Assembly (NCBI RefSeq): GCF_001421515.1
Contig: NZ_LMKM01000008.1
Coordinates: forward strand, 62,001 to 126,000
Length of the DNA stretch: 64,000 nucleotides
Reading direction: 5' to 3'
DNA from: Pedobacter sp. Leaf216
GTDB lineage: Bacteria; Bacteroidota; Bacteroidia; Sphingobacteriales; Sphingobacteriaceae
Numbering within the stretch: position 1 is the stretch's first letter; every line of letters starts with the position of its first letter. Under the pieces are notes generated by a model. The model had not been told where the DNA came from. It did no database searches and was given only the letters and a program-made list of their open reading frames with translations. The position numbers and the translations under genes were made by a program. Positions 1,836 to 56,000 of this stretch are shown piece by piece.

Positions 1836-2609
1836 ATGAACGAAAAAGAATCGAAGTACCAAGCCCCTGCTTTGGATAAAGGACTTGATATATTAGAGTA
1901 TTTATCATCACAATCTGTCCCATTATCTCAAACTGAAATTGCCGTTGGTATTGAGAAAACACCTAACGAAATTTATAGGATGTTGATGAGTTTAGAAAGT
2001 CGGGGTTACATTTTACGCGATGAGGTTTCGGGTAAGTACAGGCTATCGCTTAAGCTTTTTTACCTTTCGCACAGGCACTCGCCAATTGATGAACTGCGTA
2101 AAGCTGCACAATTTCCGTTAGAGGAATTGGCCAATACCATTCGCCAATCGTGCCACCTGAGTATTTTATACATGAACCAGGTAATGGTAATTATCCATGC
2201 AAAAAGTCCTGGCCCCATTGCACTTTCTATTGAAGAAGGTAACTTATTCCCACTACCATTAACTGCATCAGGCAAGGTTTTATTGTCGTATATGCCTGAT
2301 GATGAACGTAATACAACCTTAAAAAACAATTCTATTTTTAAAAAATATGCTAAGGCACAACAAGAAGATTTCTTGAATTCGTTAACGGATATTCAGCAAA
2401 CAGGTTCTTATTTTAAAAACAGTGATTCGGTTTCGGGCGTTACCGACATTTCTGTGCCAATCGGTGTAGCAAGCAACAACGGCATTATTGCCTGTTTAAC
2501 CATTTCGATGTTAAATGCGCTAAATGTAGATCAAACGATTGCCAATGATGTAATTCTTGCTGAGGCCTACAAATGCGTTAAAAAGATTGAGCAACGGATT
2601 GGAGTTTAA
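1836..2609 (+). CDS. IclR-family transcriptional regulator (KdgR-like candidate)
   Basis: The 257-residue protein has the usual IclR length and two-domain layout. An N-terminal winged helix-turn-helix occupies roughly residues 10-75 (LDKGLDILEYL, LSQTEIAVGIEKTPNEIYRMLMSLE, GYILRD). A C-terminal effector-binding domain follows from about residue 85, with the typical LPLTASGKVLL stretch and the DSVSGVTDISVPIG segment. IclR proteins bind small acids or sugars; the subgroup member KdgR controls pectin catabolism in proteobacteria. Here the gene is divergent from a rhamnosidase in a pectin locus, so a pectin-derived effector is plausible but not proven. It is one of only two plus-strand genes in the window. 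Regulation by an IclR protein is less usual for a Bacteroidota glycan locus than hybrid two-component or ECF control. Confidence 0.93.
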   Translation: MNEKESKYQAPALDKGLDILEYLSSQSVPLSQTEIAVGIEKTPNEIYRMLMSLESRGYILRDEVSGKYRLSLKLFYLSHRHSPIDELRKAAQFPLEELANTIRQSCHLSILYMNQVMVIIHAKSPGPIALSIEEGNLFPLPLTASGKVLLSYMPDDERNTTLKNNSIFKKYAKAQQEDFLNSLTDIQQTGSYFKNSDSVSGVTDISVPIGVASNNGIIACLTISMLNALNVDQTIANDVILAEAYKCVKKIEQRIGV

Positions 2610-6931: not shown

Positions 6932-6959
6932 TAGGTTTATTTTGGTTAGTTTTATTTAT

Positions 6960-11854: not shown

Positions 11855-13270
11855 TTATTTACTCGTGCTTAGTGGAAATAATTTTTCTAAATTTTGAAAG
11901 CCCATCATCGCATTTTTAGGCAATTTTTCACCTTTATCGCCAAATACATATAAAGCATTCTCCTTTTCAATCGTTACCTTACTTTCATCATATTTACCGG
12001 TTTTATCTTTAACCCCAGAAGCATTTAATTTGAAATTTTTAATTAGGAAATCGTATAACGCAACGCGTTTATTGACACCAAAATCGTGCTTTTCATCAGG
12101 AAGATGAACATTCTCCACTTTATCTTTAGCCCCATAATAACCGTACATTTTCTGCAGGTAAGGAAAATCGTGTTCTGGTGTATGTGCTGTCCAATCGCTA
12201 CCGTCTGACACCAGTAATTGCGGACGTGGAGCAGCCATTGCGGCTAATTCTACGTTATCGGTACCACCACCACATTGATGGATTGGCATTCCGCTTTCGC
12301 ATGGGCAACCGCCATAAAAGTATGATGACATGGCAACCACGGGTGCACTCAATTTAATCCGGTCATCCATGGCTGTCATTAAAATAGAATGACTTCCGGC
12401 GCCCGATCCACCGCTAATTCCGATCCGGTTGGTATCTGTTTCTTTTAGCGAGCCGAAATAATCCAAAATTCTGATACCGCCTAAAGCTTGAACGGTTTGG
12501 GCCAGGCTTTTTCTATGGTCTTCGTATTTAAACTGCAACATCGATTCGCCCCAGGCAAAAAGATCATAACTAAAGGCCATTGCTCCCATTTTGGCAATCA
12601 TTGCACAGCGGATCTGGCAATCGGGCCTATAACGTTGTTTTTCCCAGTGTCCATCAGGGCTAAGCACCACAGGAATTTTTCCTTTAAAATTTAATGGTTT
12701 GTAAAGGGAACCGTTAATCCATACACCTGGTAAGATTTCCAATGCAATGTTTTCTACCGAATAGCCATCAAAAATTCTTTTTGCCGTTACAATCGGTTTT
12801 GAATTTGGTTTTGCAGGTAGCGGTGATAGCAGTAAAGCTTTGTATAGTTCAGGTTTAATTTCTGCTTTACGTTTTTCCCAACTTGCCTGATCATGATATT
12901 TTGTAGCCAATTGATCTAAATATGCCCATCCATCCTGCACTTCCCATCGGTAATATTCATATTCTTTTAATTTATAAACACCAGGCTTTTCTTTGTTTAC
13001 CTTCATATCCAAAGGCATAAGCACATTGGTAAGTGTTTCGTCTACATCAGCCCGGAAACGCCAATCAGCATAGTTTACCCATTTATCTTTTACCTGAGGT
13101 TCTGAGTATTTAATTTGTACTTTGAAACGCGTTTGAATCTCTTTCAAAACATCAATAAGTGGTTTTTTATAGAGATTATCAGTGTTTTGAATTTGAGCAG
13201 AGAGGTTGTTTACAGGGAATATATAGGAAATAAATAATACAGCAAAAAATCTCAGCACCCTGGTCGTCAT
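11855..13270 (-). CDS. STN domain fused to an alpha/beta-hydrolase carbohydrate esterase
   Basis: With the ATG at 13270 the product has 472 residues and a signal peptide (MTTRVLRFFAVLFISYIFPV...LSAQ). The frame is open to 13408, but that stretch is a palindromic repeat. Residues about 32-102 (PLIDVLKEIQTRFKVQIKYS ... GVYKLKEYEYY) look like a secretin/TonB short N-terminal (STN) domain. The rest is an alpha/beta-hydrolase with RIGISGGSGAG (nucleophile Ser near 286), SDGSDWTAH (Asp near 356) and DEKHDFG (His near 395). The cysteine-rich loop GGCPCESGMPIHQC is notable. The family covers acetyl xylan esterases and pectin esterases, so the likely role is removal of acetyl or methyl esters from pectin. 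The gene ends 6 nt before the next start. Confidence 0.83.
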   Translation of the reverse strand: MTTRVLRFFAVLFISYIFPVNNLSAQIQNTDNLYKKPLIDVLKEIQTRFKVQIKYSEPQVKDKWVNYADWRFRADVDETLTNVLMPLDMKVNKEKPGVYKLKEYEYYRWEVQDGWAYLDQLATKYHDQASWEKRKAEIKPELYKALLLSPLPAKPNSKPIVTAKRIFDGYSVENIALEILPGVWINGSLYKPLNFKGKIPVVLSPDGHWEKQRYRPDCQIRCAMIAKMGAMAFSYDLFAWGESMLQFKYEDHRKSLAQTVQALGGIRILDYFGSLKETDTNRIGISGGSGAGSHSILMTAMDDRIKLSAPVVAMSSYFYGGCPCESGMPIHQCGGGTDNVELAAMAAPRPQLLVSDGSDWTAHTPEHDFPYLQKMYGYYGAKDKVENVHLPDEKHDFGVNKRVALYDFLIKNFKLNASGVKDKTGKYDESKVTIEKENALYVFGDKGEKLPKNAMMGFQNLEKLFPLSTSK

Positions 13271-13351
13271 TGCGAGTGCTGATTTTTCATCAGCCGAAGC
13301 AATCTTTCTTGATAGGATAGATTGCCGCATCATGCCTCCTCGTAATGACGA
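13264..13351. repeat. GTCATTGCGAG palindromic repeat at the esterase 5' end
   Basis: The element runs from TCGTCATTGCGAGTGCTG to CCTCCTCGTAATGACGA and belongs to the same family as those at 14555, 15337, 18243 and 24704. It keeps the reading frame open, encoding SLRGGMMRQSILSRKIASAD on the minus strand. The best signal-peptide ATG (13268-13270) is part of the repeat edge. Confidence 0.8.
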
Positions 13352-13394
13352 TCGCAACGACCTAGAAATGAATTCTTTAATTGAATTTACCATC

Positions 13395-14534: not shown

Positions 14535-14554
14535 GTTTATTTATTAAAAAAGGT

Positions 14555-14628
14555 CGTCATTGCGAGGCACGAAGCAATCCTAATGCTATAGCTACCGTAG
14601 TAAGATTGCTTCGTGCCTCGCAATGACG
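14555..14628. repeat. Perfect 25-bp palindromic repeat
   Basis: CGTCATTGCGAGGCACGAAG...ATC (14555-14579) pairs over 25 bp with its exact inverse at 14604-14628 around a 24-nt loop. It fills the gap between the DUF3826 gene and the propeller gene. It is the most symmetric copy of this repeat family in the window and would form a strong hairpin in the transcript. Confidence 0.88.
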
Positions 14629-14649
14629 ATGAGGTGAAGCAAATTCACG

Positions 14650-15315: not shown

Positions 15316-15336
15316 AATTGTGTTTTCTTTTTTAAT

Positions 15337-15423
15337 CGTCATTGCGAGGCTTGATTTTTCATCAACCGAAGCAATCTTTCTTGGCAGGATAGATTGCTTC
15401 GTCGTTCCTCCTCGCAATGACGA
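15337..15423. repeat. GTCATTGCGAGG palindromic repeat
   Basis: TCGTCATTGCGAGG at the left end and CCTCGCAATGACGA at the right end are inverted. The interior holds GAAGCAATCTTTC and GATTGCTTC. It lies between the GH78 stop and the DUF3826 start and extends the apparent reading frame of the latter. Confidence 0.85.
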
Positions 15424-15435
15424 CTTATTTCATTT

Positions 15436-18242: not shown

Positions 18243-18353
18243 CGTCATTGCGAAGCTTGGCCTGAGCGAGCTGAAGCAATCTTTTTTGCTAATGTTATTG
18301 TGTTCCATAATTTCTTTATTGAGATTGCTTCGTCGTTCCTCCTCGCAATGACG
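18243..18353. repeat. GTCATTGCGA palindromic repeat overlapping the GH2 stop
   Basis: CGTCATTGCGAAGCTTGG and its partner CCTCGCAATGACG frame a 111-bp element. The right arm (minus-strand reading) supplies the last codons and stop of the GH2 gene, SSSLRGGTTKQSQ. The repeat has therefore replaced the original C-terminus or run into it. Confidence 0.83.
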
Positions 18354-21129
18354 AACTATGGAGCGAAAAATCAAAATACAAGGTCATATTCAATGCCCTA
18401 CTTGGATCTTTATCAAAATCGTAATAAATATTCTTCATTCCCATTGGCCCTGTTGTTTCTGGTTTTTGGGTTTTTGTACCAATTGCCGAAATGGCATTCA
18501 TAAAGGAAATATCACCATTCGGAAATGTCGGACTCATATTATCGTATTCTGTATCCTTTGATTTTTTTGGTGTAAATAACCTTAAAAAAACATCTTCCCG
18601 ATCTGTTACAACTTTGAATGATTGTTGCTTGCCAATAAATTCGCACCAGTACATATTTGAATAATAGCCTTTAAATTCTGGATATTGCCATGGTGCTTCT
18701 CCTGTTGCCGAATTGTTATAATCCTTTTTCCAAATGCCAAACTCCGTTCCTTTCATCCTGTTTTTCCAAACGCGGTATGGCCCATTACCTTTGTATTCAA
18801 CGGCTTTAATTTCTGTTTCTGGATAAGAAAAGTTAACACCAACGAAAGTGGTAAAGTAATCTGATGGAAAATATTTTACTTCCATTTTTAACCATCCAGA
18901 TGGGTAAATCGTCCATTGTAGGGTATTCCAGCTTTCCTTTTTATCAAATTTAGATGAAATCACTAAATTTTCGCCATCCATTTTTTGAGTAAAACCTTTA
19001 AAGTTATTTACACCCTCCTGCAAAATAGGACCATTGGAAAAAGGCATTATCCCTTTAGCATTCCTGGCCTGTTGCAACAAACCAGTTGTTTTGTCGAACG
19101 TTAAATCAATACCATTTGCAGAAACAAGGTATAATTTAGCGTCTTCTTTGAGATTTATTTTCGAAAAACCTGTTTTTACAATAATTTTCTCAGCATCATC
19201 TATAGGCAAAGTGATGGGGAAACTCCAGGTGAATAATTCTTTACCATCCGGTCCATTTGCGCTAAGATAAAGGGCATCAAAACTTCTCCAATCTGCTGGA
19301 AGATTAACCTGTAATTTTCCTTTTTCGAAGGGTTTAATGTTTGGTGCATCGGCTTTGCCAGACTTAAATGCAGCATCTGTCCCAGCTTTTAATTTCTTCA
19401 ATTTCCAGTTAAAAGTACATTGATTGAGGTTGGTAAAAGCATATCGGTTTTCTAATGTAAACGAGCCATCAAAGCCAAATGTCATTTCTCTTTTTGCTAT
19501 AAAAACCGGACTCCAAACTTCTTTAATGGTGAAAAAACTACCTTCTTTTTCATGATAAGGCCCAACAATTCCGTCAGGGCCATGATTTCCATCAGTATCC
19601 AATTCACCATTTTTATCGGTACGCACCACAGCCTGGTCGGCAAAATCCCATAAGAAACCGCCAGCCGAAAGTGGATTGTTCCACATGGCATTCCAGTAAT
19701 CTTCAATGCCTGCACCATGACCGCCATCCCACATACCATGCAGAAATTCGGTAGGCATTAAAATATTGTGCCCATGATCGTAGTTGCCAATTCCGTAATT
19801 AAATTCACGGTAATGTGTGGTTTCAAAACCGTTAAAAACTTCCCAAGGGTGAATTAAAGGTCTTTTTTGAAGATCTTCCTCGCCAAAAAGATGATCAAGT
19901 TCGCGGTTATGACCACCTTCGTTCCCATTGGCCCAAAATATAATCGATGGATGATTTTCATCATTCAACATCATTTCTTTCATCAACTTCGTTCCGGTAG
20001 GCGTAACATAAGTGCCGTGCCAGCCTGCCAGTTCGTCCATTACAAATAAGCCAAGCGAATCGCAAACGTCTAAAAAATGGCCATCTGGTGGGTAGTGAGA
20101 CATCCGGACGGCATTCATATTCATTTCTTTCATCAACAAAACATCGGCGATGCTGATTTTTTTACTGGTTGTTCTGCCCGACGACGGATAAAATGAATGC
20201 CGGTTTACACCTTTAAACTTCATTTTTACTCCGTTAACATATACGCCATCACGTTCTTTTACTTCAACTGTTCTAAAACCAATTTTTTTGGAAATCTGAT
20301 GGATCTCTTTCCCATTTTTAATTAATGTGAAGTTTGCCGTATACAAATTCGGAAACTCTGAAGACCATAAAGCCGGATTGGAAAATTGATGATTGAGTTG
20401 TATGTTTTTATTTCCTTTATTTATTGAAGTTGTAAACCGATCACCAAATCTTTTCCCATTTTTTCCTAAAAGCTCCACTTCAATTTTATCTGCATCACCA
20501 GTATAATTTAATTGCGCATTTAAACTGCCATCAGCTTTGGCATCGATCTGAATCCGATTGATATGGGTTTGCGGCAGTGATTCGAGATATACAGGTCTGA
20601 AAATGCCACCAAAAATCCAGAAATCAGCCTTGCGTTCGGCATTGTTAACCGATTCATTAGCAGAATGCTTGGATACTTTTACTTCAAGTAAATTATCGTC
20701 GCCAAATTTAATCAGTTTGGAAATATCGTATTTAAAAACATAAAATGAACCCTGGTGAATCTCACCAGCCAACTGACCGTTAATTTTTACTTCGGTATCG
20801 GTCATTGAGCCTTCAAAAACGATATTGATTTCCTTATTTTTCCAGGCAGTTGGAACTTTAAATTTATACTTGTAAAGCCCTTCTTCCTTTCCCTTATTTT
20901 CTTCTTTGTTGAAACCATAATTATATTTTCCGAAACCCTGCAGTTCCCAATTTGAAGGAACTGGTATAGTGGTCCATTTGCCCGAATTTGTGCCAGCGGT
21001 ACAGAAAAAATCCCAGTTCACGGTATTGTCGTTCCCTGTTCCCGATAGGTATAATTTCTCCGTTTGCTGGGCTTTTAGCGAGCAGAATAGGGTTGTTAAA
21101 CACAAGAAAAGTATAAATCTGCGTTTCAT
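18316..21129 (-). CDS. GH2 beta-galactosidase-like enzyme
   Basis: The 937-residue product has a signal peptide (RRFILFLCLTTLFCSLKAQ), a GH2 sugar-binding domain (about 30-190), an immunoglobulin-like domain (about 195-295) and a TIM barrel from about 300. The barrel contains FKGVNRHSFYP, WANGNEGG (acid/base Glu near 404) and MPTEFLHGMWDGG (candidate nucleophile Glu near 461). The C-terminal half has beta-galactosidase small-chain-like strands. It likely removes beta-linked galactose or a related sugar from pectin side chains. The last 13 residues are encoded by a palindromic repeat. The start codon overlaps the upstream SASA stop by one base, which suggests translational coupling. Confidence 0.9.
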   Translation of the reverse strand: MKRRFILFLCLTTLFCSLKAQQTEKLYLSGTGNDNTVNWDFFCTAGTNSGKWTTIPVPSNWELQGFGKYNYGFNKEENKGKEEGLYKYKFKVPTAWKNKEINIVFEGSMTDTEVKINGQLAGEIHQGSFYVFKYDISKLIKFGDDNLLEVKVSKHSANESVNNAERKADFWIFGGIFRPVYLESLPQTHINRIQIDAKADGSLNAQLNYTGDADKIEVELLGKNGKRFGDRFTTSINKGNKNIQLNHQFSNPALWSSEFPNLYTANFTLIKNGKEIHQISKKIGFRTVEVKERDGVYVNGVKMKFKGVNRHSFYPSSGRTTSKKISIADVLLMKEMNMNAVRMSHYPPDGHFLDVCDSLGLFVMDELAGWHGTYVTPTGTKLMKEMMLNDENHPSIIFWANGNEGGHNRELDHLFGEEDLQKRPLIHPWEVFNGFETTHYREFNYGIGNYDHGHNILMPTEFLHGMWDGGHGAGIEDYWNAMWNNPLSAGGFLWDFADQAVVRTDKNGELDTDGNHGPDGIVGPYHEKEGSFFTIKEVWSPVFIAKREMTFGFDGSFTLENRYAFTNLNQCTFNWKLKKLKAGTDAAFKSGKADAPNIKPFEKGKLQVNLPADWRSFDALYLSANGPDGKELFTWSFPITLPIDDAEKIIVKTGFSKINLKEDAKLYLVSANGIDLTFDKTTGLLQQARNAKGIMPFSNGPILQEGVNNFKGFTQKMDGENLVISSKFDKKESWNTLQWTIYPSGWLKMEVKYFPSDYFTTFVGVNFSYPETEIKAVEYKGNGPYRVWKNRMKGTEFGIWKKDYNNSATGEAPWQYPEFKGYYSNMYWCEFIGKQQSFKVVTDREDVFLRLFTPKKSKDTEYDNMSPTFPNGDISFMNAISAIGTKTQKPETTGPMGMKNIYYDFDKDPSRALNMTLYFDFSLHSSSLRGGTTKQSQ

Positions 21130-22547: not shown

Positions 22548-22736
22548 TCCCGCGCAGGCGGGAATCTTAATGCTACAGGTGCTAGGATTCTCTCCCGTCA
22601 TTTCGATCCGATAGCTATCGGATGGAGCGCAGCGAAACCGAGAAATCATTTCCGCATGGTTCAAAGATTTCTCCACTACGGTCGAAATGACGCTTAGGAA
22701 AGATTGCCGAGCCTTGCCCCCTCGTACTGACGATGA
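22542..22736. repeat. Cluster of three different palindromic repeat families
   Basis: GTCATTCCCGCGCAGGCGGGAATC (22543-22566) forms a hairpin with CCCGC/GCGGG arms. CGTCATTTCGATCCGATAGC...GTCGAAATGACG (22596-22692) is a second element with TTTCGA/TCGAAA arms. The remains of a GTCATTGCGAGG-type element follow (AAGATTGCCGAGCC to ACTGACGA, to 22733). Three families are stacked in one gap, and the SASA start codon lies within the first. Confidence 0.8.
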
Positions 22737-22817
22737 TGTGGCCGGAATGCCGAACGCCTTAGCACTCAATAATGGGAAAACTCCAAACTCCAAACCCAAA
22801 ACTCCAAACTTTCTCAT

Positions 22818-27298: not shown

Positions 27299-30200
27299 TT
27301 AAATTTTATTGATGATGAGTACCTCGTCGCCTGCTGCCACTTTATTCAGTTTTACAATTGCACCTCCATTAATTTTCTCTTCTTTTAGCACTTTACCATT
27401 TCTGGTATTGAGCACTTTTACATTGAATTTCCCTGTATTTTTACTTAGATCGAGGTCTATTGCATTTGGTGAGGCATTGTATAAAATATAAGCTTTACCT
27501 GCATTTTCCAGCCCATATTGTTTAGCCGATTTACCTGCAAGAAGAAAAGGTTTCATTGAAGAAGCAGCACTTAAAACTGTTTTATCTATATCGTTAACGT
27601 TTGATAAAGAACCACCTGCCATTAAAATCGCCCATCCAAAACTATCAAAGCTATCTCCCGAATACATTACAGCTTTTTCAGGGAACTTATTCTTATATTC
27701 GGAAACGGCATGGTAAACTTCTTCGAAAGATGTTTTCTTAGGTTTTAGCAAACGGGCATGTTGTCGCGGTGCCAAACTTAAACCACCTTGCGGTGCGTAA
27801 GCTGTTCCATCGGCCTGATAATGCCAATACCTGATATCTATTAAATTAATCACACTTGCACGTTCAGGATCGGCTAAAATGGCATCCTGCACATCTTTTG
27901 TTACACTCAAACCAATAATTGGGTGTTTGCCTGTTTCTTTCTCCCATTCTTTTATGGTATCGATCCAGAATTGAACGAAATGAAGCGGACCGGTAAATTC
28001 GGCACCGATTAACTGAATTACACCAGTATTTCCATTAAAATTTTCCAGGCATTTTCTGATGTAAGCCTTATGGATTGCTTTACGATGCTCATTGCTGATG
28101 TCGTAAAACTGCTCGGCCATAAAAATGCGTTTATCGCCAGCATATGGCACAGGCTCAGGAAAACCCGTATTGTTGATGTTGTTTGCAGTACGCCATGGAA
28201 AGTCGGCATAGTGTGCTCCGGCTTCGATAATGTTGTGCTGAAAATAATTTTCGTGGATTAAAACCAGGCCTTTTTGATCGGCAAGGTTGGCGAATTGCTT
28301 TAACCTGTCCCAATACCATAAATTGTATTTGGTAATGTCGTATTTGCTTAAACCATCCCAGGCTTTATCCTGGCCGCTACGGGCAAAAGGCAATTCGTAA
28401 AAAGGTGCCCAAACCTCGCCATCCATACGGCGGATTCGCTCATGATCATCTCTTCTTCTGTCGTACCAAAGGCCGTAATTGTGATCGAGCACTTTAACAG
28501 TGCCATTTTTCATCGCATCTGTGATCGAATCCAAATCATCCGTTAAGCCATTGCCTGAACGGCCAGGAACGAAACGCGTAATATGAAATTTAGTATTTTT
28601 CAATCCATACGGACGGGCACTCCCATTCCACCAGGGAACATCCTGGCGATTACCCACCACAACTTCATTGCCACGCACCAACCAGCCGTTTTTAACCGTC
28701 ATTGCATCAGCAAGTGCAGGTTGAATAACTTTATCAAGACCAATTTTATCAATACTTTTTGCAGAACCGGCATCGGTTATGATTTTATCCCGATCTGTTA
28801 CGGCATCAATATATTCGGAAACTGTTAAAGCAGGTTTATACGCCAGCTTAGTCAGTTTTAAAGCTACATCAACAGGCGGACTGCTTGATGCTTCTGTTTC
28901 TACAGGAAGTACAAAATTTCGTTTTTCTGCTTCATTACCCAATCTATCTTTAAGTTGGGCATAATATAAACTTCGAGGCTGGATCTGTTCGTTTGACATA
29001 TCCCAATAACCGTTCCCGGCAAATTGCGACCAGGTTCCAAAAGCCCAATTTTGTGCTGTTGGTGGTTGAAAATTATCAACCCTTGCAGCGCTACATTGCC
29101 AGAATACACTATTTGCCGCACCCCAACCGGCTCCTTGGCCATCTTGTCCACGGTTTAAATAACTTAAGGCCTGTCCGTCAATATTTACTATATCGAATAA
29201 CACACCTGATGCCCAGCTATCAATAGCACCACTAAAACTGAATGGCAAATAAGATTGGCATTGTACAAAAACATTAGGACCCGGGGCACAAAAGCCTACA
29301 GCAAAATCATGGTAGCCATATTCTGAGTATAACCTTTGAAAAAGCGTTTGCTGACCAGTGGTTAAAAATGTAAATCTTCGTTCACCACCAATTTCAGAAA
29401 CTGGGGCAAGTGATTTACAATCTTCAACTGTAATTCTTTTAGCGGTTTCAAGTACATTAACGGCAGAGCCGGCAAAATGCTCAAAAACAACCTGACGAAC
29501 CCATGCATCCTGGGTATTTTCTACGCAGATGGCTGTCCAGCGATGGTATTCATCCTTACTATTTTCCTTATGGTAATCTGATTCGATTTTTAGATTTTCG
29601 ATACCTGTTCGTGAAATTCTACCTTCCCATTTGTATTTAGAAATGGTTGCTCCACCAAACTTAGCATCTAAAGCCGTGGTAATAGGTGCATCAAAAGTAA
29701 TGGTATTGCCGTTCATGGCGATAATCTTTCTATCCCAATGGATGTCTCTTGTTCCAGGTTTCCAGCCTAAAGCACTTTCTCCTCCACCAAACTCTACCGT
29801 TTTTAGCGTTTCGATCCACTCTTTGGTTGATGGACGGTGAATCAAAATTTCATCACCAACCTTTAATCCGCTGGTACTTGCTAAGGTTACTTTATTTGCA
29901 TTAACAGGTACTAAAGGATCAGTAATGGCGATAGCTTTTTCTTCCAACTTATTCTTTTGGCCTAAAATTCTGATTACGCCAATCCGGTCTAAACCTGTTG
30001 CAAAAATCTTTGTGCCGTTTTCGCCCATTCCACTACCACGGAGTACCACTCCGGAGGCTGACAACCTTAATGTTCCTGCAACTTCGTAAGTGCCTTTTTC
30101 TAAAAATACTGCTCCACGTAAACCATCTTTACCGATTGGCAATTTAGCTACATAATTTAGGGCTGATTGAATTCTTAAAGTGGCATCGCCCTTTGAAACA

Positions 30201-30460
30201 GGAACAACTACCTTTATTGTTGCATTGGGAATCGCTTTTTCGCCCGCCATGTAACCCGCATAAGAAAAATCGGGAATCCGGTTTCCTTCCGCATCTGGAG
30301 TGTAAGCCATTTTGCCATCTTTTCCTTTAAAAATCGGCTTTGGAGGCTCAACAGGCTTTGTTTTTTGCGCATAAGAAAAGTTAATCGCCAAAAGAGCCAT
30401 GACCAAAATCGGTAAGGCTTTTATTTGTATGGTTTTTAATATATGGTTAGTTTTTGGCAT
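27299..30460 (-). CDS. Large secreted protein: beta-helix domain fused to a TIM-barrel-like domain
   Basis: From the ATG at 30460 (signal peptide ALPILVMALLAINFSYAQ) the product has 1053 residues. Residues about 50-560 form a pectate-lyase-like parallel beta-helix (FLEKGTYEVAGTLRLSASGVVLRGSGMG, VFEHFAGSAVNVL, EDCKSLAPVSEIGGERRF). A linker follows (about 570-620). A second domain of about 400 residues (YNLWYWDRLKQFANLADQKG, GVIQLIGAEFTGP, HPIIGLSVTKDVQDAI, VMYSGDSFDSFGW) looks like a TIM-barrel glycosidase. The closing beta-sandwich is AYILYNASPNAIDLDL. It resembles uncharacterised Bacteroidota proteins seen in pectin loci (DUF6298-like, from recall). A catalytic residue cannot be named; Glu in GAEFTGP and Asp in SGDSFDS are candidates. 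Confidence 0.7.
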   Translation of the reverse strand: MPKTNHILKTIQIKALPILVMALLAINFSYAQKTKPVEPPKPIFKGKDGKMAYTPDAEGNRIPDFSYAGYMAGEKAIPNATIKVVVPVSKGDATLRIQSALNYVAKLPIGKDGLRGAVFLEKGTYEVAGTLRLSASGVVLRGSGMGENGTKIFATGLDRIGVIRILGQKNKLEEKAIAITDPLVPVNANKVTLASTSGLKVGDEILIHRPSTKEWIETLKTVEFGGGESALGWKPGTRDIHWDRKIIAMNGNTITFDAPITTALDAKFGGATISKYKWEGRISRTGIENLKIESDYHKENSKDEYHRWTAICVENTQDAWVRQVVFEHFAGSAVNVLETAKRITVEDCKSLAPVSEIGGERRFTFLTTGQQTLFQRLYSEYGYHDFAVGFCAPGPNVFVQCQSYLPFSFSGAIDSWASGVLFDIVNIDGQALSYLNRGQDGQGAGWGAANSVFWQCSAARVDNFQPPTAQNWAFGTWSQFAGNGYWDMSNEQIQPRSLYYAQLKDRLGNEAEKRNFVLPVETEASSSPPVDVALKLTKLAYKPALTVSEYIDAVTDRDKIITDAGSAKSIDKIGLDKVIQPALADAMTVKNGWLVRGNEVVVGNRQDVPWWNGSARPYGLKNTKFHITRFVPGRSGNGLTDDLDSITDAMKNGTVKVLDHNYGLWYDRRRDDHERIRRMDGEVWAPFYELPFARSGQDKAWDGLSKYDITKYNLWYWDRLKQFANLADQKGLVLIHENYFQHNIIEAGAHYADFPWRTANNINNTGFPEPVPYAGDKRIFMAEQFYDISNEHRKAIHKAYIRKCLENFNGNTGVIQLIGAEFTGPLHFVQFWIDTIKEWEKETGKHPIIGLSVTKDVQDAILADPERASVINLIDIRYWHYQADGTAYAPQGGLSLAPRQHARLLKPKKTSFEEVYHAVSEYKNKFPEKAVMYSGDSFDSFGWAILMAGGSLSNVNDIDKTVLSAASSMKPFLLAGKSAKQYGLENAGKAYILYNASPNAIDLDLSKNTGKFNVKVLNTRNGKVLKEEKINGGAIVKLNKVAAGDEVLIINKI

Positions 30461-30576
30461 TGATGTTTTTTTAATCAACTTTCTACAAGCACGCGTCACC
30501 CTGAATTCATTTCACGACACAAGAAAAGCAAAATTGCTATAAGACTGCCAAGCCTTTGCGCTTTCAGCTTTAGTCT
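30461..30576. other. Short gap between the beta-helix giant and the pectate lyase
   Basis: The gap holds a degenerate repeat-like word GTCACCCTGAATTCATTTCA (30495-30514) and a T-rich stretch. No promoter is evident, so the lyase pair and the downstream genes may be one transcript. Confidence 0.4.
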
Positions 30577-33874: not shown

Positions 33875-34266
33875 TTTGTGTTTGCTCGTGGGAAGATAAA
33901 GAAGTTACGGAATATTTTTGATTCAGCAGAAAAACTGATCTTTAATATCGAATATCGTGGCTCATTTCTATATCTATCCTTGTAAATAATTTTGGTTAGA
34001 AAGTATATTATCTTTCAAATTTGCACGCAATAAGCGGCTATTTTATGTATAATTTTGGCTAGCTATTGTATCATCTTATCAATTGGCTAAAATGGCTGTA
34101 ACAAATTAAATTCATTCTCTCAGCCATGTTACAAGATAGAAATAATATTCATATATAAATGTAACATTCTTGAATAAAAAAAAGGAAACAAATTAATGTT
34201 CCCTTTTTCAAACCAAATTTAAAAAACCAGGGCGGTGAGCAAACCGCCCCAAAAAGTTTTAGTCAT
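33875..34266. promoter_or_regulatory. Regulatory block A upstream of the pectate lyase pair
   Basis: This gene-free stretch contains TTTGGTTAGAAAGTATA (33991-34007), AATTTTGGCTAGCTATTG (34051-34068) running into TATCATCTTATC (34069-34080), and ATTCATATATAAATG (34147-34161). The same three words occur at matching distances (0, 60, 156 nt) in the block upstream of the first susC gene (39631, 39691, 39787) and, except for a divergent middle word, at 46401-46570. The minus-strand lyase gene starts 117 nt from the first word. The far end holds terminators of the SusD gene. Confidence 0.75.
34176..34250 (-). terminator. Tandem terminators after the first SusD gene
   Basis: GGGCGGT (34230-34236) pairs with ACCGCCC (34243-34249), followed on the minus strand by a TTTTTT tract. 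Farther downstream AAAAAGGAAACA (about 34179-34190) pairs with TGTTCCCTTTTT (about 34198-34209) with one mismatch. Together they should end the SusC/SusD transcript before the pectate lyase block. Confidence 0.75.
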
Positions 34267-39357: not shown

Positions 39358-40027
39358 CTTAATATTTGGTTAGTTTCAACTCAATTTTCGGCAGATTTAA
39401 CCTGCCATTTTACACTACAATTTTTCTCAACATTTTTAAATGCTAAAATTATACTGATGTAATAACTTGTAAACTTTTTAAGTGGAGGGCGTTAACGGTT
39501 TGTAATGAAATACTCGGTATTTCACCTGATGTATATGGCTTAATGAAAAACTAAGTCATTAACTTTGATAGAAAAATTAATGTAAAATGGGAAATTTGGC
39601 TCATTCTTTATTTTGATCTGAATAATTATTTTTGGTTAGAAAGTATATTATAATTCAAAATTGCACCTAATATTAAACTATTTCATGTATAATTTTGGCC
39701 AGGTATTGTATCATATTATCATTGAATAAAAAGCAATCTTTCTGATTTTATGCTGAACAATAACCGAGATACAAGGTAAAAATAATATTCATATATAAAT
39801 GTAATATTTAAATAAAAATATAGTAGAATTTTGTTGGCTACCCGATTATTACACAAAAAACGTTGTTTTAACGTTTATTTTAAGGTTTTGGTAAGGAAAT
39901 ATTTACATAAACACTTGCAGGGTTAATCATAAATACCTTTATTCTAACTCCCAAAAAATGCTTATGCCAAAAAAAAAGAGAGCATTTCTGCTCTCTTTTT
40001 AAACCAAATACATAAAATTTTGAAATT
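39358..40027. promoter_or_regulatory. Regulatory block B upstream of SusC/SusD pair 1
   Basis: This 670-bp gene-free stretch carries TTTGGTTAGAAAGTATA (39631-39647), AATTTTGGCCAGGTATTG (39691-39708) running into TATCATATTATC (39709-39720), and ATTCATATATAAATG (39787-39801). It is phase-identical to block A (offset of exactly 5640 nt for all three words). On the sense (minus) strand the words read as direct repeats of a CCAAAATTAT core spaced about 60 nt apart. The remaining sequence near the susC start is a long AT-rich leader with the motif ACTAACCAAAT next to the ATG. Confidence 0.78.
39973..40000 (-). terminator. Intrinsic terminator after the surface lipoprotein gene
   Basis: AAAAAGAGAGCA (39973-39984) and TGCTCTCTTTTT (39989-40000) form a perfect 12-bp stem with a TTTC loop. 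On the minus strand the stem continues into a run of T residues. It separates the second SusC/SusD/lipoprotein transcript from block B. Confidence 0.85.
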
Positions 40028-46119: not shown

Positions 46120-46632
46120 ATTTGTTATTTGGTTAGTTTTTTATACTAATTAGATTTATTTTATCCTTAATCGAGCAGCATTTGCTTTATTAAAGAGTAA
46201 CATATCCATACCTGGCAAGCTTGATGTTGCCAGTTAAAGTTTATCCAATAAAATTTTCCGGTTAAGGAGGTGTTAGTTGGGATTCTTTTTGCTCATAAAG
46301 CTTGCTAGTTAGGCAAAGAATCGGATAGCGTTTTAAATTTTCGGCGAACGATAATTTTTTAATTTAGATTTCTCATATCTTTTTTTTTATAAATTTTAAT
46401 TTTGGTTAGAAAGTATACTTCAGGGCTTATTATAACCGTGAAACATGGGTATTTTATTAATAAACAGTTAAATACTATATCATTTTAACAAAGAATGTAA
46501 TACACTAACTATTAACTATTTAATGAGTTATTTTCTTTAAACAAGATACAATAAAATTCATATATAAATGAAATATTCTTAAATAAAAAAGAAAAAAATA
46601 ATGGAGCATTTAAATCTGATCCATTATGTATA
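46120..46632. promoter_or_regulatory. Regulatory block C upstream of SusC/SusD pair 2
   Basis: This 513-bp gene-free stretch holds TTTGGTTAGAAAGTATA (46401-46417), a divergent middle word ending TATCATTTTAAC (46478-46489) and ATTCATATATAAATG (46556-46570). The words are spaced as in blocks A and B within one base. Between them and the susC start lies an AT-rich leader of about 280 nt. A terminator of the upstream DUF3826/isomerase operon lies at the other end. Confidence 0.74.
46598..46627 (-). terminator. Hairpin after the DUF3826 gene
   Basis: ATAATGGA (46598-46605) pairs with TCCATTAT (46620-46627). On the minus strand it is followed by a T-rich tract (TTTTTTTCTTTTTT). It probably ends the isomerase/DUF3826 transcript just before block C. 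Confidence 0.6.
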
Positions 46633-47301
46633 CTAATTTACTTGTGCTTTCGCTTTTCTTCGCTTCTCCCATTCTGCTCCTTCTTTCTTCAAATCGTAGC
46701 CAGCAGCAGATAGGTAATTATTAATTCTACCTTTATATTTACCAAACCAGGCATGTTTTTTATCTGATGATTCTGCATCCATTGCATGCTCCCTGGCCTC
46801 GGTTAACCAGGTTAGAATTTGTTTTTTCTGATCATCTGTTAATGTTAAAATTTCTTCCTGATAAGCCTTGTAAGTGATGGGCAGTACATTGTAAGTCATG
46901 CCGTTTTTAACAAGTTCAACCTGCTCATTTGTTAATTGTGCAGACAATTTGCTGATGTATTTTTTGTGGAGTTTTGCAAGCGATGTTTCTACAATGCGAG
47001 CATCTTTTGCAAGTGCCGAGTCGCGCTCTACCTTATTTTCTTTGTTTTTCTCTTTAATCTCTTTAACACGAATATCCCTTGCAGCATAAATATCGTTTAA
47101 CGCACTATACTGATCCCCGATAATCCCGGTAACTTTTTCAGTTTTCTTGGCATCGGTAATGCCTATATTGGTCACAATTTTAGCAGAACGCTCAGTAATC
47201 ATTTTGGTATAAGCCTCTTTATCGGCTGGGGTATTATTTTGAGCGAAAATTGCCGTAATGCTCGAGCACGTTAACAGTAAGGCTAAAATTGATGATTTCA
47301 T
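46633..47301 (-). CDS. DUF3826-type secreted protein, copy 2
   Basis: The 222-residue product has a signal peptide (SSILALLLTCSSITAIFAQ) and a charged helical body. LTNEQVELVKNGMTYNVLPITYKAYQEEI and LTWLTEAREHAMDAES align with copy 1 (14650-15315) over most of the protein. The C-terminal tail is again basic (EKRRKAKAQ). It is 10 nt downstream of the isomerase-like gene, so it is co-transcribed with it. The function is unknown. Two copies in one locus, each next to different enzymes, suggest a support role in pectin use. Confidence 0.75.
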   Translation of the reverse strand: MKSSILALLLTCSSITAIFAQNNTPADKEAYTKMITERSAKIVTNIGITDAKKTEKVTGIIGDQYSALNDIYAARDIRVKEIKEKNKENKVERDSALAKDARIVETSLAKLHKKYISKLSAQLTNEQVELVKNGMTYNVLPITYKAYQEEILTLTDDQKKQILTWLTEAREHAMDAESSDKKHAWFGKYKGRINNYLSAAGYDLKKEGAEWEKRRKAKAQVN

Positions 47302-48949: not shown

Positions 48950-49172
48950 ATTTTATTAATGAACAAATTATTTATATAAAAATAATTAGTCAGCTTATAT
49001 TTTGGTTAAGCCTATAAGGCTATATACAAAACTCAACAATGAAAAACATAATTTTCTAATGGTTTTTATCAAATTAATATAGGATGTTATCATTAAACTA
49101 ATTAACTTTAACCCGCTGTGGTACAATTTATATTGTAAAATATACAGCACTAACCAAATATTTACAAGTAAC
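48950..49172. promoter_or_regulatory. Divergent control region, isomerase-like gene and AraC regulator
   Basis: This 223-bp AT-rich gap contains ATTTTGGTTAAGCC (48999-49012), similar to the first word of blocks A-C, and TTATCATTAAAC (49087-49098), similar to the second. Near the AraC start is the inverted repeat TACAAT-TTAT-ATTGTA (49122-49137), a candidate operator. The AraC ATG follows ACTAACCAAATATTTACAAG. These resemblances are weaker than those among blocks A-C. Confidence 0.45.
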
Positions 49173-50042
49173 ATGAAACCTCATTTTCATAAAGTTCCGA
49201 TTACCTTACAAAGTTCCTTTAGCATCCGGCATGATATCAAACCTGATTTTGGTAACATCTGGCATTACCATCCTGAACTGGAATTGCATTATGTAATAAA
49301 AGGTGAAGGCGTTCGATTTATTGGCGACAACATCAGCAATTTTGTGCCTGATGAGATGGTGCTTTTAGGTGAGAACTTGCCACATACCTGGCGCTGTAAA
49401 GATGAGTATTTTCAAAATAATCCAGATTTAACCACTGAAGCCATGGTTATTCATTTTTTACCCGATTGCCTGGGCAAATACATGCTTACTTTACCTGAAG
49501 CTTACCTGATTCCGAAGTTATTTGAAAAAGCTAAAAGTGGCATGGTGATAAAAGGCAAAGCGAAAGACAAACTGGTTGATTTAATGCGGGCTGCTGTAGA
49601 TGCAACAAATTTAGACCGCATTATCATTTTGTTATCCATTTTAAAAACTTTGGCCGAAACGGATGAATATGCTACCATTGTAACGAGTAAAAATACCTTT
49701 TATCAAAGTAATGAATCTGAAACACTCCGCATTAATAAAATTTGCAATTATACGCTGAGCAATTATAAAAAGGACATTACACTTGAAGAAGTAGCATCAT
49801 TAAGTAATTTAAGCGTGACTTCTTTTTGCAGGTATTTTAAGCTAATGACAAAGAAAACCTTTTATGATTTTCTGATCGAAATAAGGGTGAGCCATGCCTG
49901 CCGTTTCCTGATTGAGAACAAATTACCCACCGAAATGATTTGTTTTGATTGCGGTTTTAATAATGTTTCAAATTTTTACAGGCACTTTAAAAAGGTTACC
50001 GGGATGACACCTTTGGATTATAAAAGGAAGTATTTGAATTAA
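49173..50042 (+). CDS. AraC-family transcriptional regulator
   Basis: The 289-residue product has an N-terminal cupin-like sensing domain (about 5-150, WHYHPELELHYVIKGEGVRFIGDN). A C-terminal double helix-turn-helix (about 185-285) reads DITLEEVASLSNLSVTSFCRYFKLMTKKTF and ends FNNVSNFYRHFKKVTGMTPLDYKRKYL. Such proteins activate sugar-use genes on binding a sugar. The divergent fucose-isomerase-like gene suggests a fucose- or arabinose-like ligand. It is the second plus-strand gene and, like the IclR gene, sits at a boundary of the locus. Confidence 0.94.
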   Translation: MKPHFHKVPITLQSSFSIRHDIKPDFGNIWHYHPELELHYVIKGEGVRFIGDNISNFVPDEMVLLGENLPHTWRCKDEYFQNNPDLTTEAMVIHFLPDCLGKYMLTLPEAYLIPKLFEKAKSGMVIKGKAKDKLVDLMRAAVDATNLDRIIILLSILKTLAETDEYATIVTSKNTFYQSNESETLRINKICNYTLSNYKKDITLEEVASLSNLSVTSFCRYFKLMTKKTFYDFLIEIRVSHACRFLIENKLPTEMICFDCGFNNVSNFYRHFKKVTGMTPLDYKRKYLN

Positions 50043-51374: not shown

Positions 51375-52943
51375 TTAATGGGCAGTTTTAGTTTTTTGTT
51401 TTTTAATTTTTGTCAGGAAAAGTCCTGTTAAAAAAATGGTTAAAGTGCCAACCACGATAATCATATTTTTATGTAAAGGATTTCTAAAAGCTTCATATTC
51501 CGGAGGAAGAAGTGAAGAAAATGTCATCCATATAATTACGGCTATTCCGATTATTGTTGCAGTGATGGCTTCGTGATTTTTAGTTTGCCTGCTGATAATC
51601 CCCAGGAGAAATAAACCAAGCATTCCTGCTGCAAAAATCCCCGATAATTCCCACCAAACGTCTAAAATGCTTTTTACTCCAATCATGGCGATGCCGGCAA
51701 TCATACCGAGTAAGCCAAAGCCAACAGTTGCCAAATGCAAAAGTGATAAATTCTGCTTTTCGGTGATACCCGGCTTAAAATACCTTTTATAAATGTCGAC
51801 CGAAAATACCGTAGCCGAGGCATTCATCCCAGAACTGATGGTACTCATGGCTGCTGAAAGAATGGCCGAAACAATCAATCCAACCAATCCTACCGGAATT
51901 TTAGTGACCATAAAATGGGGCATAATTTTATCACCATAATCTGCTGGTTGTAATGCATTTTGTACCTTCAAAACCTCAGCGGCCGAAGCATGTAAAGGCA
52001 AACGTTCAATCGCTACCTGGTGCTTAATCGATTGTACCAGATCAGGATTAATCTCGTAATAAGCATACAAGCAAGATCCTATAATAAAAAACAGCAAGGA
52101 TGCAGGTATATAAAGCCATACGCATAACCAGATCGACTTTGAAGCGGCTTTACTTGATGATGCTGTATGGTATCGCTGAATGTAATTCTGATCCATCCCA
52201 AAGTTATTCAGGTTGATAAAAAAGCCATAAAGCAGCACCACCCAAAACGAAGAACCAACAAAATCAAGCTTAAAACTACCTAAACTGAATTTTTTTGCCG
52301 ATTGTCCGATCTCTACAATCTTCGAAACCCCTCCCGGCATATTTGAAATGATTAAATACAGAATCAGTAATGCGCCAAAAGTTTTCACTACAGCTTGTAC
52401 CACTTCTGTCCATATTACCGCTTCAATTCCTCCTAAAACAGTATAAACAATGATACAAATGCCCATTACAATCATAATCATCTGCATGGAATAACCTGTA
52501 AGTGCTTGTAAACTCAAAGCGATTCCAAAAAATATAGATCCCATTCTGGCCAGTTGCGTTAACAAAAAACACACCACTGCATATACTCTTGCCCATGCTC
52601 CAAAACGTTTTTCTAAATGAGTATAGGCCGATATTTCACCAGTATTCCGATAATAAGGAACAAAGTATTTTGAAGCAATCCAGGCGGCCAACGGCATTGA
52701 AATACTGAACACAAATGCATTCCAGTTACTACCAAAAGCTTTTCCAGGTACGCCTAAAAAAGTATTACTGCTTAAAAATGTTGCATAAATAGATAAACCT
52801 ATCGCCCATCCGGGGATCAGGCCCGAAGCTTTTGTAAATTGCTCGGAGTTTTTATTTTTCCTCGAAAAATAAACCCCAACTAATATCATTCCAACAAGAT
52901 AAATGAAGATAATTGCAAGATCGACTACAGGAAGTCCTTTCAT
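51375..52943 (-). CDS. Sodium:solute symporter (SSS family), second copy
   Basis: The 522-residue protein has about 13 membrane segments. It opens with PVVDLAIIFIYLVGMILVGV and has FTKASGLIPGWAIGLSIYAT, typical of the symporter core, then SAILSAAMSTISSGMNASATVFSVD. It is not close to the symporter at 5342-6931 and probably transports a different solute. The promoter gap (52944-53041) contains AATTTGG (52964-52970) and TTTTGGCCACATATTATATA (53014-53033), the latter close to block B. The aldolase gene follows directly, so import and cleavage of one compound is likely. Confidence 0.93.
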   Translation of the reverse strand: MKGLPVVDLAIIFIYLVGMILVGVYFSRKNKNSEQFTKASGLIPGWAIGLSIYATFLSSNTFLGVPGKAFGSNWNAFVFSISMPLAAWIASKYFVPYYRNTGEISAYTHLEKRFGAWARVYAVVCFLLTQLARMGSIFFGIALSLQALTGYSMQMIMIVMGICIIVYTVLGGIEAVIWTEVVQAVVKTFGALLILYLIISNMPGGVSKIVEIGQSAKKFSLGSFKLDFVGSSFWVVLLYGFFINLNNFGMDQNYIQRYHTASSSKAASKSIWLCVWLYIPASLLFFIIGSCLYAYYEINPDLVQSIKHQVAIERLPLHASAAEVLKVQNALQPADYGDKIMPHFMVTKIPVGLVGLIVSAILSAAMSTISSGMNASATVFSVDIYKRYFKPGITEKQNLSLLHLATVGFGLLGMIAGIAMIGVKSILDVWWELSGIFAAGMLGLFLLGIISRQTKNHEAITATIIGIAVIIWMTFSSLLPPEYEAFRNPLHKNMIIVVGTLTIFLTGLFLTKIKKQKTKTAH

Positions 52944-53010
52944 TATTTGTTGGCTCGTTTATTAATTTGGTTAAAACAAATATGCATGTCTAAATATCTA
53001 CATTAATATA

Positions 53011-53041
53011 AGATTTTGGCCACATATTATATAATCTTATC
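53011..53041 (-). promoter_or_regulatory. Copy of the second block word upstream of the symporter
   Basis: GATTTTGGCCACATATTATA (53012-53031) continuing to ATCTTATC (53034-53041) matches block A/B word 2 (TTTTGGCCAGGTATTG and TATCATATTATC) in most positions. It lies 70 nt from the symporter start and touches the stop codon of the GH2-malectin gene. It is a candidate binding site for the same regulator. Confidence 0.55.
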
Positions 53042-56000
53042 TTATTGAACATCCAATGCATCAACCGCTAATCCTTTAGCATCTATGGCAATCAATTTAA
53101 GTTTATATGTTCCGGCATTTATCATGCTCCCTGTATTGGTGCTCAAATAATTCCATTTACCGGTTTTTGTTGGCGCAAATTCAATATTTTCCGTCTTCAT
53201 CAAGGTTCCATCTGCTAAAGAGAAAGTTAATTTTCCTGTTAAAGGCTTTTCGGATGGATTATGGTATTTAATCGTTAAAGAATAGGTGTCGGCAACGCCA
53301 ACTGAAATCTGCCAGGTTAAATTTCCCTGATCAACAGCATTAAAAACAACACGTTCCTTATCCATAAGCATCGATTTAATAACACCCTTACCTGCTAAAG
53401 TACCCTCGGTAGCTTTGTAAGTGGTAGTGGTTTTTAAATCGTAAGCGGGTTGTAAGTGGGTAATTGGCAATGCGAAAACAGTTACAGTTCTATTATCAAA
53501 AATAATTCTTTCATTTGGAATAAGCCGTTTGCGATAAAGATGGAATATTTCATCCTTACTATTTTTTAGGGAAGTTTTAGTGTCTTCGAATCCCTGTGGT
53601 ATGCTGCTATTTATATTTAAAGCAATAAAAGCATCCAAACTATCTGTAGCGGTAAATTCGATACTTTCCTGCCCGCGGGTGGCTTTTAACCATTCGGCAC
53701 CGAATAAGTTGGATGGAAGTTCCGAAAATGTTAAATTTTCACCTTTAAACTGGTCATCTCCAATATCCAGCCAACTGTTAAGTTCAGCATTTCTAATTTT
53801 TGCTAAAAGTGATTTACTTGGTTCAGCAGGTTTAATAGCCGGATTTAAACTGGCAATCGCAATAGCTGAGATAACTGCCTGACCAACTTTTACCTGCGGG
53901 AAATTAATGTCCAAAAAGCCACCTTTTATGTCTATTTTAACCGTTTTTTTCAATAAAGTGTTGCTTCCGGTTGTTTTCCAAATGTCTAAATCTTTTATAA
54001 CCGTTTTACCATTAAAAGCGACATCAAATAAACGCATGGCTTTGGCATCAAAACCTCCACCAATCCCCATCCAGGGTTCAATAAAATAAAGTTCGACCAG
54101 ATATTCCCCATCAGGAAGTGGAAAATGGTATTTCAATTGATCCCTGCCATACCTGAAAGTTTGAAAAAGCTTCCAATCTTTAGTACCATCAATGGGTTGG
54201 AACGTGCGCCGCTGACTGGCAAAAAAATTAGGGATACCCGTGAAATCTTTTGTCCAGGAGGTTGAGCCAAAGCTGTTAGATGAGCTTAAATTTCTGTCAG
54301 CATACCATTTGCTTCCATTGGTATCTGTATAGTCGCCACCGCCACAGTTTACGCGATATACATAATTATATCCCTGAGCAGGAACGGTTAATTTTTTATC
54401 ATTAATTAATATATTGAAATTTGGACTTTGAGGCAGGTTTTGCAATACAATTTGATCTTTAGCAACTGCTTTTCCGTTTACATAACCTACTGCATATAAT
54501 ACGTTATATTTTATATCTGGCTTATTCCATTGGAAGTGCGTGCCTATTGCGCCACGTTTTCTTCTGCCTAAAGATTGGCCTTTTATATCATTAAACAGTT
54601 CTACCTCATCACAGTTAGCATACACCACAATACAATCTTTAATTCCAGGTTTGTTCCAGCGGTTTGGCCATGTATGTGAAACAATGTATACCATTGGCTC
54701 AGTTTGTTTTGGTGCATAATTTGCCCTGAACATGTAAAACACATCTGTAGGCTCTTCCCAGGGGGTAAACATGCCCTTGTAATTTACTGGCCCTACCCGA
54801 TCAAGATCTCTCAAACCTTCACCGCCCTGTACCCTGCCAGGGTTATCGTGCGAACTGTATAACCAAAAGAAATGACCGGCTGTTTTATCTTTTACCGATT
54901 CGGCCAGGCGCACTTTGGTTTCCATTAAATCGGTCATTTTGTTTTCGGTATAACCTTTTCCATTGGCATCGGTTGTATGAAGATCAATTGTTCTCCATGC
55001 ACCGTATTCACCAACCAAAATCTGCCTTTTTAAATCTTCGCCATAAGCGAGCGGATTGCCGCCATAAGTGCCTGTCCAGTTTTGAGGCACATCCCAATCT
55101 GTCCCTTTACCACCATTGCATGTAGTTACCTTTCTTTGTGAGGAAGCGGTAGGATCTAATTTTCTAATCAGCTCGGTACATTCTTTAGCAAGATCTTCTG
55201 GTAGTGTACTTTCATTTTCCAAACCCCACAACACTACAGCCGGACTGTTTCTGCGTTCTTTTACCCAATCGGTTAATAGTGCTTTAAAGTTCTTTCGAAA
55301 TTCTGGTGTATCATACCAGATATGTGCGGCCATTTGTGTCCAGCACAAAACCCCTTCCTGATCCCAATAATCAGAATACAATAAATTATGCGGTTGGTGT
55401 GCATCGCGAAAGGCGTTAAAACCTGCTGCCTTAATTTGCCTAACTCTCGAACTAATCTGCTCATTGCTAAAAGCATGGCTCTGACCAATTAGATGCTCAT
55501 ATTCTGCAATGCCATTGATAAAAACAGGCTTTCCATTTAATAAAAACTGTTTTTGGTTTGCCTGATCATCAATCCGATAGCTGTCGGATGGCCAACTGAT
55601 CCAGCGGATACCGTAAGGTGTTTTCAGCTCATCTACAATTTTCCCGTTTTCGATTATGATAGTTTGAACTGTGTACAAATATGGATTTTCTAAAGACCAA
55701 AGTTTAGGATTGATTATTTCATCAGTTTGCTGATCAACCTGAATTTCTTTGCCACTAAGGATAGTTATTACTTTCTTTAATTCTTTAACCTGTTTTCCGG
55801 TTTTATCTAGTAACCTGTTGATTATGGCTATATTTTTAGACTTCGGACTGTAATTTTTAACTGTGGTACTCAGATTTAAAATAGCTGCCTTTTCTGAAAC
55901 TTTATTATCGTTCCAAATGTGTAGGCCAAAAGGTTCAACCCGAATATCATTGGTTACAATTAAATGAACAGGGCGAAAAATCCCCATTGGCTGCGAACCC

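Follow-up and report, generated by a model that had tools for sequence, protein, structure and literature searches.

A composite control block common to a pectate-lyase operon and two susC operons in a Pedobacter-like pectin locus, with candidate AraC and IclR operators

The pectate-lyase operon and the two susC operons of the pectin locus in the window (the whole stretch of 64,000 nucleotides analysed here) have a composite control block in common. The genes are on the minus strand, and along the direction of transcription the order of the elements is W3, W2, a -7 box, W1, the word ATGAGCC and the start codon. We favour, with moderate confidence, a composite promoter that is read by two regulators of the same locus, AraC on W2 and IclR on W3. 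According to this proposal, the AraC-family protein (49173-50042) would bind W2, a short distance ahead of the -7 box, as an activator; the IclR-family protein (1836-2609) would occupy the near-palindromic W3, some 140 nt upstream, and act with AraC via the fixed arrangement of the sites; IclR would probably control its own promoter too. RNA polymerase would start a few nucleotides before W1, which would become the 5' end of the mRNA, and the inducer would presumably be a product of pectin degradation. IclR could be an activator or a repressor, and we lean towards activation because W3 is located far upstream of the promoter.

The locus contains pectate-lyase-like genes, two susC/susD pairs, GH28, GH95, GH2 and rhamnosidase genes, and the genes of the IclR and AraC regulators. 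The genome is Pedobacter-like, the nearest named matches of the pectate-lyase protein being Pedobacter species (up to 97%). For the pectate-lyase-like proteins at 30577 and 32219 no Pfam match was obtained, and NCBIfam assigned the one at 32219 to PelZ, under the cut-off. Proteins of unknown function, DUF6298 and DUF3826, are also located inside the locus (27299-30499 and 46633-47301); going by ORF N-termini, the loci of genomes G159 and/or G162 appear to have counterparts of them. Dispersed imperfect repeats (TCGTCATTGCGAG ... CGCAATGACGA) are present at 13264-13356, 14554-14629, 15336-15428, 18322-18359 and 22701-22738, one of them being a 38-nt inverted pair; the ends of several listed ORFs are doubtful because these repeats overlap them. 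The Rfam search of the window gave no match at the gathering score, that is, no known structured RNA.

W1 (TATACTTTCTAACCAAAA) and W3 (CATTTATATATGAAT) each have exactly three zero-mismatch matches in the 5.68 Mb genome, all of them at blocks A, B and C and all oriented in the direction of transcription. W1 is located at 33990-34007 in block A, at 39630-39647 in block B, upstream of the first susC, and at 46400-46417 in block C, upstream of the second susC (all on the minus strand), and the W3-to-W1 gaps are 139, 139 and 138 nt, respectively. An earlier note on this DNA had claimed three such blocks, and its outer words (W1 in its form TTTTGGTTAGAAAGTATA, and W3) are indeed exact at these three places only, genome-wide; at zero mismatches, neither occurs at any unrelated gene in the 5.68 Mb. 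When two or three mismatches are allowed, matches to the words are no commoner than those to the reversed control (49 versus 49 and 27 versus 32), and therefore the signal of the block lies in the exact triple match together with spacing and conservation.

In alignments of 52 pectate-lyase upstream regions and of the paralogous susC blocks, the block words stand out amid diverged spacers, and they are found again at orthologous Pedobacter promoters. The 52 regions include that of the window and leave out loci above L086, except L107, as well as the truncated loci L064, L067, L069 and L081, which were also left out of the W3 presence counts and the pectate-lyase spacing analysis. The distances from block to start, previously given as 117, 274 and 282 nt, were measured as 116, 273 and 281 nt. 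The block stays intact as the distance to the start codon drifts: in 33 pectate-lyase promoters with W3, the standard deviation is 3.0 nt from W3 to CTAACC versus 12.1 nt from CTAACC to ATG. It could be argued that the likeness of the blocks comes from recent duplication alone, with no shared function, as two of them precede susC paralogs and an alignment of the blocks extends over about 190 nt. This is very improbable: the words and their spacing have been retained at orthologous promoters in many species even though the sequences between them have diverged, and the same words precede the pectate lyase gene, which is no susC relative.

The W3 modules are located on the minus strand at 34128-34183 in block A (core ATTTATATATGAAT at 34147-34160), at 39768-39820 in block B (core 39787-39800) and at 46541-46591 in block C (core 46556-46569), the centre of the first being about -142 from the inferred start. 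Model R1 gives them E values of 2.6e-14, 1.6e-9 and 9.9e-10 in their own genome, matches that arise by construction, as R1 and R2 were trained with blocks A, B and C. The core is a near-palindrome, with 12 of 14 positions, counted by eye, agreeing with the reverse complement. At E 1e-4 or better, R1 finds W3 in 49 of 144 genomes of the genus, this one included, with one to three copies in each and 100 in total, and copies on one contig are within 13.4 kb of each other. Of the 49 genomes compared for IclR, 31 have the core, with at most one mismatch, in front of the pectate lyase gene.

The gene of the IclR-family regulator (1836-2609, plus strand; PF01614 1.5e-20, PF09339 5.3e-10), the proposed reader of W3, has two W3-like boxes in its own upstream region, neither with an assigned strand. 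ATTTATATTTGAAT (1696-1709) is exact to the degenerate core WTTTATATWTGAAW and conserved in relatives, and the weaker TTTTAAATATGAAA (1715-1728) emerges from the comparison with relatives. R1 has no strong match at this place, where the flanks differ, but the 14-nt core does match. Of 41 iclR upstream regions, 36 (20/21 and 16/20) contain the one-mismatch core ATTTATATTTGAAT, W3-negative genomes included, with the second box 19 nt beyond it in many of them. Viewed as a whole, 1696-1728 consists of tandem AT-rich boxes with a T-run between them and is conserved in nearly all 41 regions. The pattern WTTTATATWTGAAW has eight matches in the genome, of which A, B, C and iclR account for four, versus eight for the reversed control, and for this reason the case for the W3 core rests on conservation and place. 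The four other matches were set aside; they overlap ORFs without evident link, at or near starts or inside.

A relative of the IclR of the window (E <= 1e-40) is present in 40 of the 49 genomes. W3 and IclR occur together in 31 of these, IclR without W3 in nine, neither in nine and W3 without IclR in none, a distribution that is confounded by kinship; L047 and L070 are outside these counts, their genomes not being among the 49 compared for IclR. W3 is probably the IclR operator, considering its resemblance to the near-palindrome upstream of iclR and its absence from all nine IclR-less genomes of the 49. In three IclR-positive loci (L058, L059 and L061) W3 is absent upstream and W3-like AT-rich words are present in the leader, with two mismatches (shuffle p 0.04-0.08), in the last 60-90 nt before the pectate lyase. 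A W3-like word is also found 93-96 nt before a CTAACC-like word in L048 (near 1153), L051 (near 1142) and L043 (near 2049); L048 and L051 are from genomes that lack the AraC cluster, and in them the gene behind the word seems to be DUF3826-like.

W2 is a 37-nt direct repeat of the AraC type, in which GAnAAwATnnTAyA occurs twice, 21 nt apart. It is located at 34046-34082 in block A (about -71 to -35), at 39686-39722 in block B, at 49057-49093 between the gene at 47312 and the divergent AraC gene, and at 53007-53043 upstream of the sodium:solute symporter (SSS) gene 51375-52943, each time on the minus strand. The AraC-family gene itself (49173-50042, plus strand) encodes a protein with a cupin-like N-terminus (PF12833 2.8e-19), the proposed reader of W2. 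Model R3, whose training set includes these four sites and leaves out block C, finds the same four as the significant W2 sites of the genome (E 2.6e-7 for A and 1.1e-7 for B), the one beside AraC as 49061-49093, and the next match has E 0.28. With the block-trained R2, the SSS site has E 4.1e-5 in the window and is fourth in the genome (E 0.004), and the 47312/AraC site has E 0.003 in the window but is seventh in the genome (E 0.28). Matches above the latter include C1:167363 (E 0.032, partial) and C7:435147 (E 0.23), which sits upstream of a lipoprotein-like ORF.

The W2 matrix contains sites of the window, and its matches there also arise by construction; the ranking was repeated over 96.8 kb around the locus with matrices free of window sites. 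Matrices from other genomes, each built from one promoter class (6 pectate-lyase, 18 SSS and 9 47312 sites), gave the same top four places, namely A, B, the SSS promoter and the 47312/AraC intergenic region, the last being fourth best with the pectate-lyase and SSS matrices. With the pectate-lyase matrix the SSS site scores 23.6 and the 47312/AraC site 15.2, by a small margin above the next (14.5, W1 of block A); with the SSS matrix the 47312/AraC site scores 13.0, by a moderate margin above the next (10.0). The block-derived matrix also finds sites before further genes of the locus, and in relatives matching sites precede the counterparts of these genes. It scores at least 14 at 198 places, a count that includes overlapping loci and 42 sites with no gene assigned to them; the matches reach Hymenobacter, with an unassigned one in Spirosoma. 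Among 183 unique sites found with this matrix the best offset is 21, with a score of 5.82 versus -0.52 (sd 1.45) after shuffling, and 0 of 500 column shuffles score as high.

The distribution of the regulator points in the same direction. A close relative of AraC (E <= 2.7e-136) is present in 47 of 49 genomes (49 of the 51 chosen were used). In G159 and G162 (loci L048 and L051), the best AraC match has E 1e-48 to 1e-49 and the best SSS match 26% identity, and no full W2 was found in the 33-34 kb stretches of their pectin loci (best E 0.073, 16/37 positions); both keep W3, W1 with one or two mismatches, and an IclR that is 91-92% identical. The two look closely related, and the co-loss of AraC and W2 may be one event. 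In L043, L049 and L054, AraC is present and W2 is kept elsewhere, but it has been lost at the pectate-lyase promoter. W2 is probably the operator of AraC, judging from its place before the 47312/AraC and SSS genes and from the pectin loci of the two genomes lacking the AraC cluster, where no full W2 was found. A regulator of the hybrid two-component (HTCS) kind also has an AraC-type DNA-binding domain, and a 21-bp direct repeat suits the HTCS predictions equally well; W2 could accordingly be an HTCS operator. We regard this as quite unlikely, considering that W2 is located in the AraC intergenic region, was not found in those two pectin loci, and that the contig, C8, lacks an HTCS (0 of 10 Y_Y_Y matches).

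The middle word had been described for all three blocks, which holds for A and B; in C no convincing site is present. W2 is weak or absent at many susC promoters, block C among them, where the best score is 4.5 versus 44.7 in A and 44.1 in B, though all three blocks trained that matrix. This score is beneath the maximum of the null from 300 shuffles (6.6; 95% point -3.4), and R3, built without C, finds only a partial W2 site there (E 0.36).

In the 27 pectate-lyase promoters with a W2 score of 14 or more, W3-to-W2 is 77-81 nt and W2-to-W1 is 79-81 nt. Among 62 unique blocks, the W3-to-W1 distance is 156-162 nt in all 38 that have a W2 score of 10 or more, whereas the 24 W2-poor blocks are spaced more loosely. 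For the 20 of these that remain after exclusion of the four rows below 130 nt, the standard deviation is 5.1 versus 1.4 (Mann-Whitney p 7e-7), and with all rows kept p is 4e-8, values that overstate independence, as the genomes are related. Two of the excluded rows (L048 near 1153 and L051 near 1142) appear to be promoters of DUF3826-like genes and not W1 blocks. The sequence comparison suggests a fixed site geometry, such as contact between W3- and W2-bound proteins would give; a deletion removing W2 could alter the spacing on its own.

The earlier note had ascribed the block to one regulator with several sites. This does not hold for W2 and W3, which differ in sequence, in their other locations and in evolutionary fate. 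Nevertheless, a single regulator encoded elsewhere, for example a hybrid two-component or SusR-like one, might bind all block words. The genome has 10 Y_Y_Y matches, nine of them over the cut-off; predicted direct repeats are about 21 bp for HTCS and 67 or 77 bp for SusR-like regulators, according to parts of PMC3878776, and the period of W2 is 21 nt. In addition, in A and B the W1 and W2 regions have copies of CCAAAATTAT at a distance of 63 nt, and the other-genome matrix of six pectate-lyase sites gives W1 of block A a W2 score of 14.5. On the other hand, none of the 10 Y_Y_Y matches is on the 138.8 kb contig, W2 and W3 are lost separately, and the genome's four significant W2 sites are all in the pectin locus, one of them beside the AraC gene. 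The likeness of W1 drops to 4.6 when all 38 other-genome sites of all W2 classes are used, and CCAAAAT occurs in nine of 42 aligned W2 sites. The six-turn direct repeat noted previously is real in A and B but mostly unconserved, and its 63 nt differ from the 67 or 77 bp between the centres of SusR-like operators. A single regulator is therefore given a low probability. Among the regulators suggested earlier, IclR and AraC are retained, for different words; no evidence was found for a hybrid two-component regulator among the Y_Y_Y matches.

Returning to the composite promoter with two readers, its core part concerns the -7 box and W1. The -7 box is CAAATTTG in block A (34016-34023; consensus TAnnTTTG) and CAATTTTG in block B (39656-39663), both on the minus strand and at equal offset; in block C no -7 box was found. 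In Flavobacterium many starts are located 4-5 nt past a TAnnTTTG box, as described in parts of PMC6847099, and when this spacing is applied, the start of block A would be near 34011 and W1 would span about +5 to +22. Of 33 pectate-lyase promoters, 25 have the relaxed form [TCG]AnnTTTG at 22-24 nt ahead of CTAACC, versus about 5% in shuffles, and seven have the strict form; among 29 susC-type rows a relaxed box occurs in nine, eight of them at the usual offset, and the strict form in one. From its position downstream of the -7 box, W1 is probably a transcribed leader at the 5' end of the transcript.

In an opposite assignment, an alternative sigma factor would use W1 as its core promoter, W3 and W1 would suffice as promoter, and the TTTG box would be incidental. 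The persistence of W1 in susC-type blocks that have neither W2 nor a recognisable -7 box speaks for it; the fixed offset of the box in most pectate-lyase promoters speaks against it, as does the finding that one half of W1, CTAACCAAA, recurs as a leader motif close to many start codons, and altogether we consider it unlikely. CTAACCAAA is a generic pre-start motif: a scan of 308 ORFs found TAACCAAA in the 40 nt ahead of the start at 35 places, many of which are orthologous, before varied genes, and susC has a second copy of the motif near its start codon. Shortly before starts, CTAACCAAA is seen at 39365-39373 and 46128-46136 (both susC), 49150-49158 (AraC) and 6941-6949 (a second SSS gene).

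Further into the leader, 40 of 60 blocks have ATGAGCC at a distance of 29-36 nt from CTAACC (shuffled P 0.0003). The AUG is underrepresented near Bacteroidetes start codons, as stated in parts of PMC6847099, which makes a kept upstream AUG notable. Possible tiny leader ORFs begin 33-35 nt after CTAACC in A, B and C: ATGAGCC with the seven-codon MSHDIRY* at 33942-33965 in block A and MSQISHFTLIFLSKLMT* at 39551-39604 in block B (both on the minus strand), and MRNLN at 46359-46376 in block C, which reads ATGAGAA in place of ATGAGCC. After ATGAGCC there is no coding signature in the 60 blocks, variation being spread over all codon positions, and the word may mark an upstream ORF or be a motif at the nucleic-acid level. 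It is rather doubtful, though conceivable, that the geometry-locked IclR/AraC enhancer is a coincidence gate replacing the usual HTCS, with CTAACCAAA/ATGAGCC in the leader adding translational control via a tiny upstream ORF.

What, then, does the block add to what is known about such loci? What has been described of the regulation of polysaccharide loci in Bacteroidetes concerns chiefly hybrid two-component, SusR-like and sigma/anti-sigma systems, as parts of PMC3878776 present it, and the word IclR is absent from the main text of that paper (Ravcheev et al. 2013). By title or abstract start, no report of IclR/AraC control of pectin loci in Pedobacter was found in the mostly non-subscription literature. 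The locus provides a testable case from soil Pedobacter in which two one-component regulators appear to share promoters of fixed geometry. The candidate operators are defined to the base, and natural variants without one site or one regulator exist.

Several known systems are close to the block in part. As in the Bacteroides HTCS/SusR-like operators described in parts of PMC3878776, it precedes susC/susD and depolymerase operons, and W2 shares the 21-bp direct-repeat layout of the HTCS motifs; unlike in HTCS systems, the proposed readers are the one-component AraC and IclR, and a second operator is located at a fixed distance. The KdgR-type IclR regulators of enterobacteria and Thermotoga belong to the same family and act on pectin- or uronate-related genes, and KdgR of Thermotoga is predicted to share targets with XylR, according to parts of PMC3750489. 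The Pedobacter IclR was compared with the models of KdgR and of PcaR/PcaU and scored under the cut-off in both cases (67.8 bits versus an NCBIfam cut-off of 275, and 90.4 bits versus 284.75). The primary-sigma promoter of Bacteroidetes consists of -33 TTTG and -7 TAnnTTTG, as given in parts of PMC6847099. The likeness is a -7-type box, mostly in the relaxed form, whose position is constant in the majority of pectate-lyase-type blocks; the block differs in that the first T is often replaced and the box is missing in many susC-type blocks; by eye, no -33 element was noted in the blocks. AraC-family activators use direct-repeat operators next to the promoter. W2 is similar to these in two respects: its half-sites are 21 nt apart and end about 35 nt upstream of the inferred start, and one W2 site is located beside the AraC gene itself. 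The difference from AraC-family activators is the separate upstream operator, W3, assigned to a regulator of another family and kept in a conserved layout with W2.
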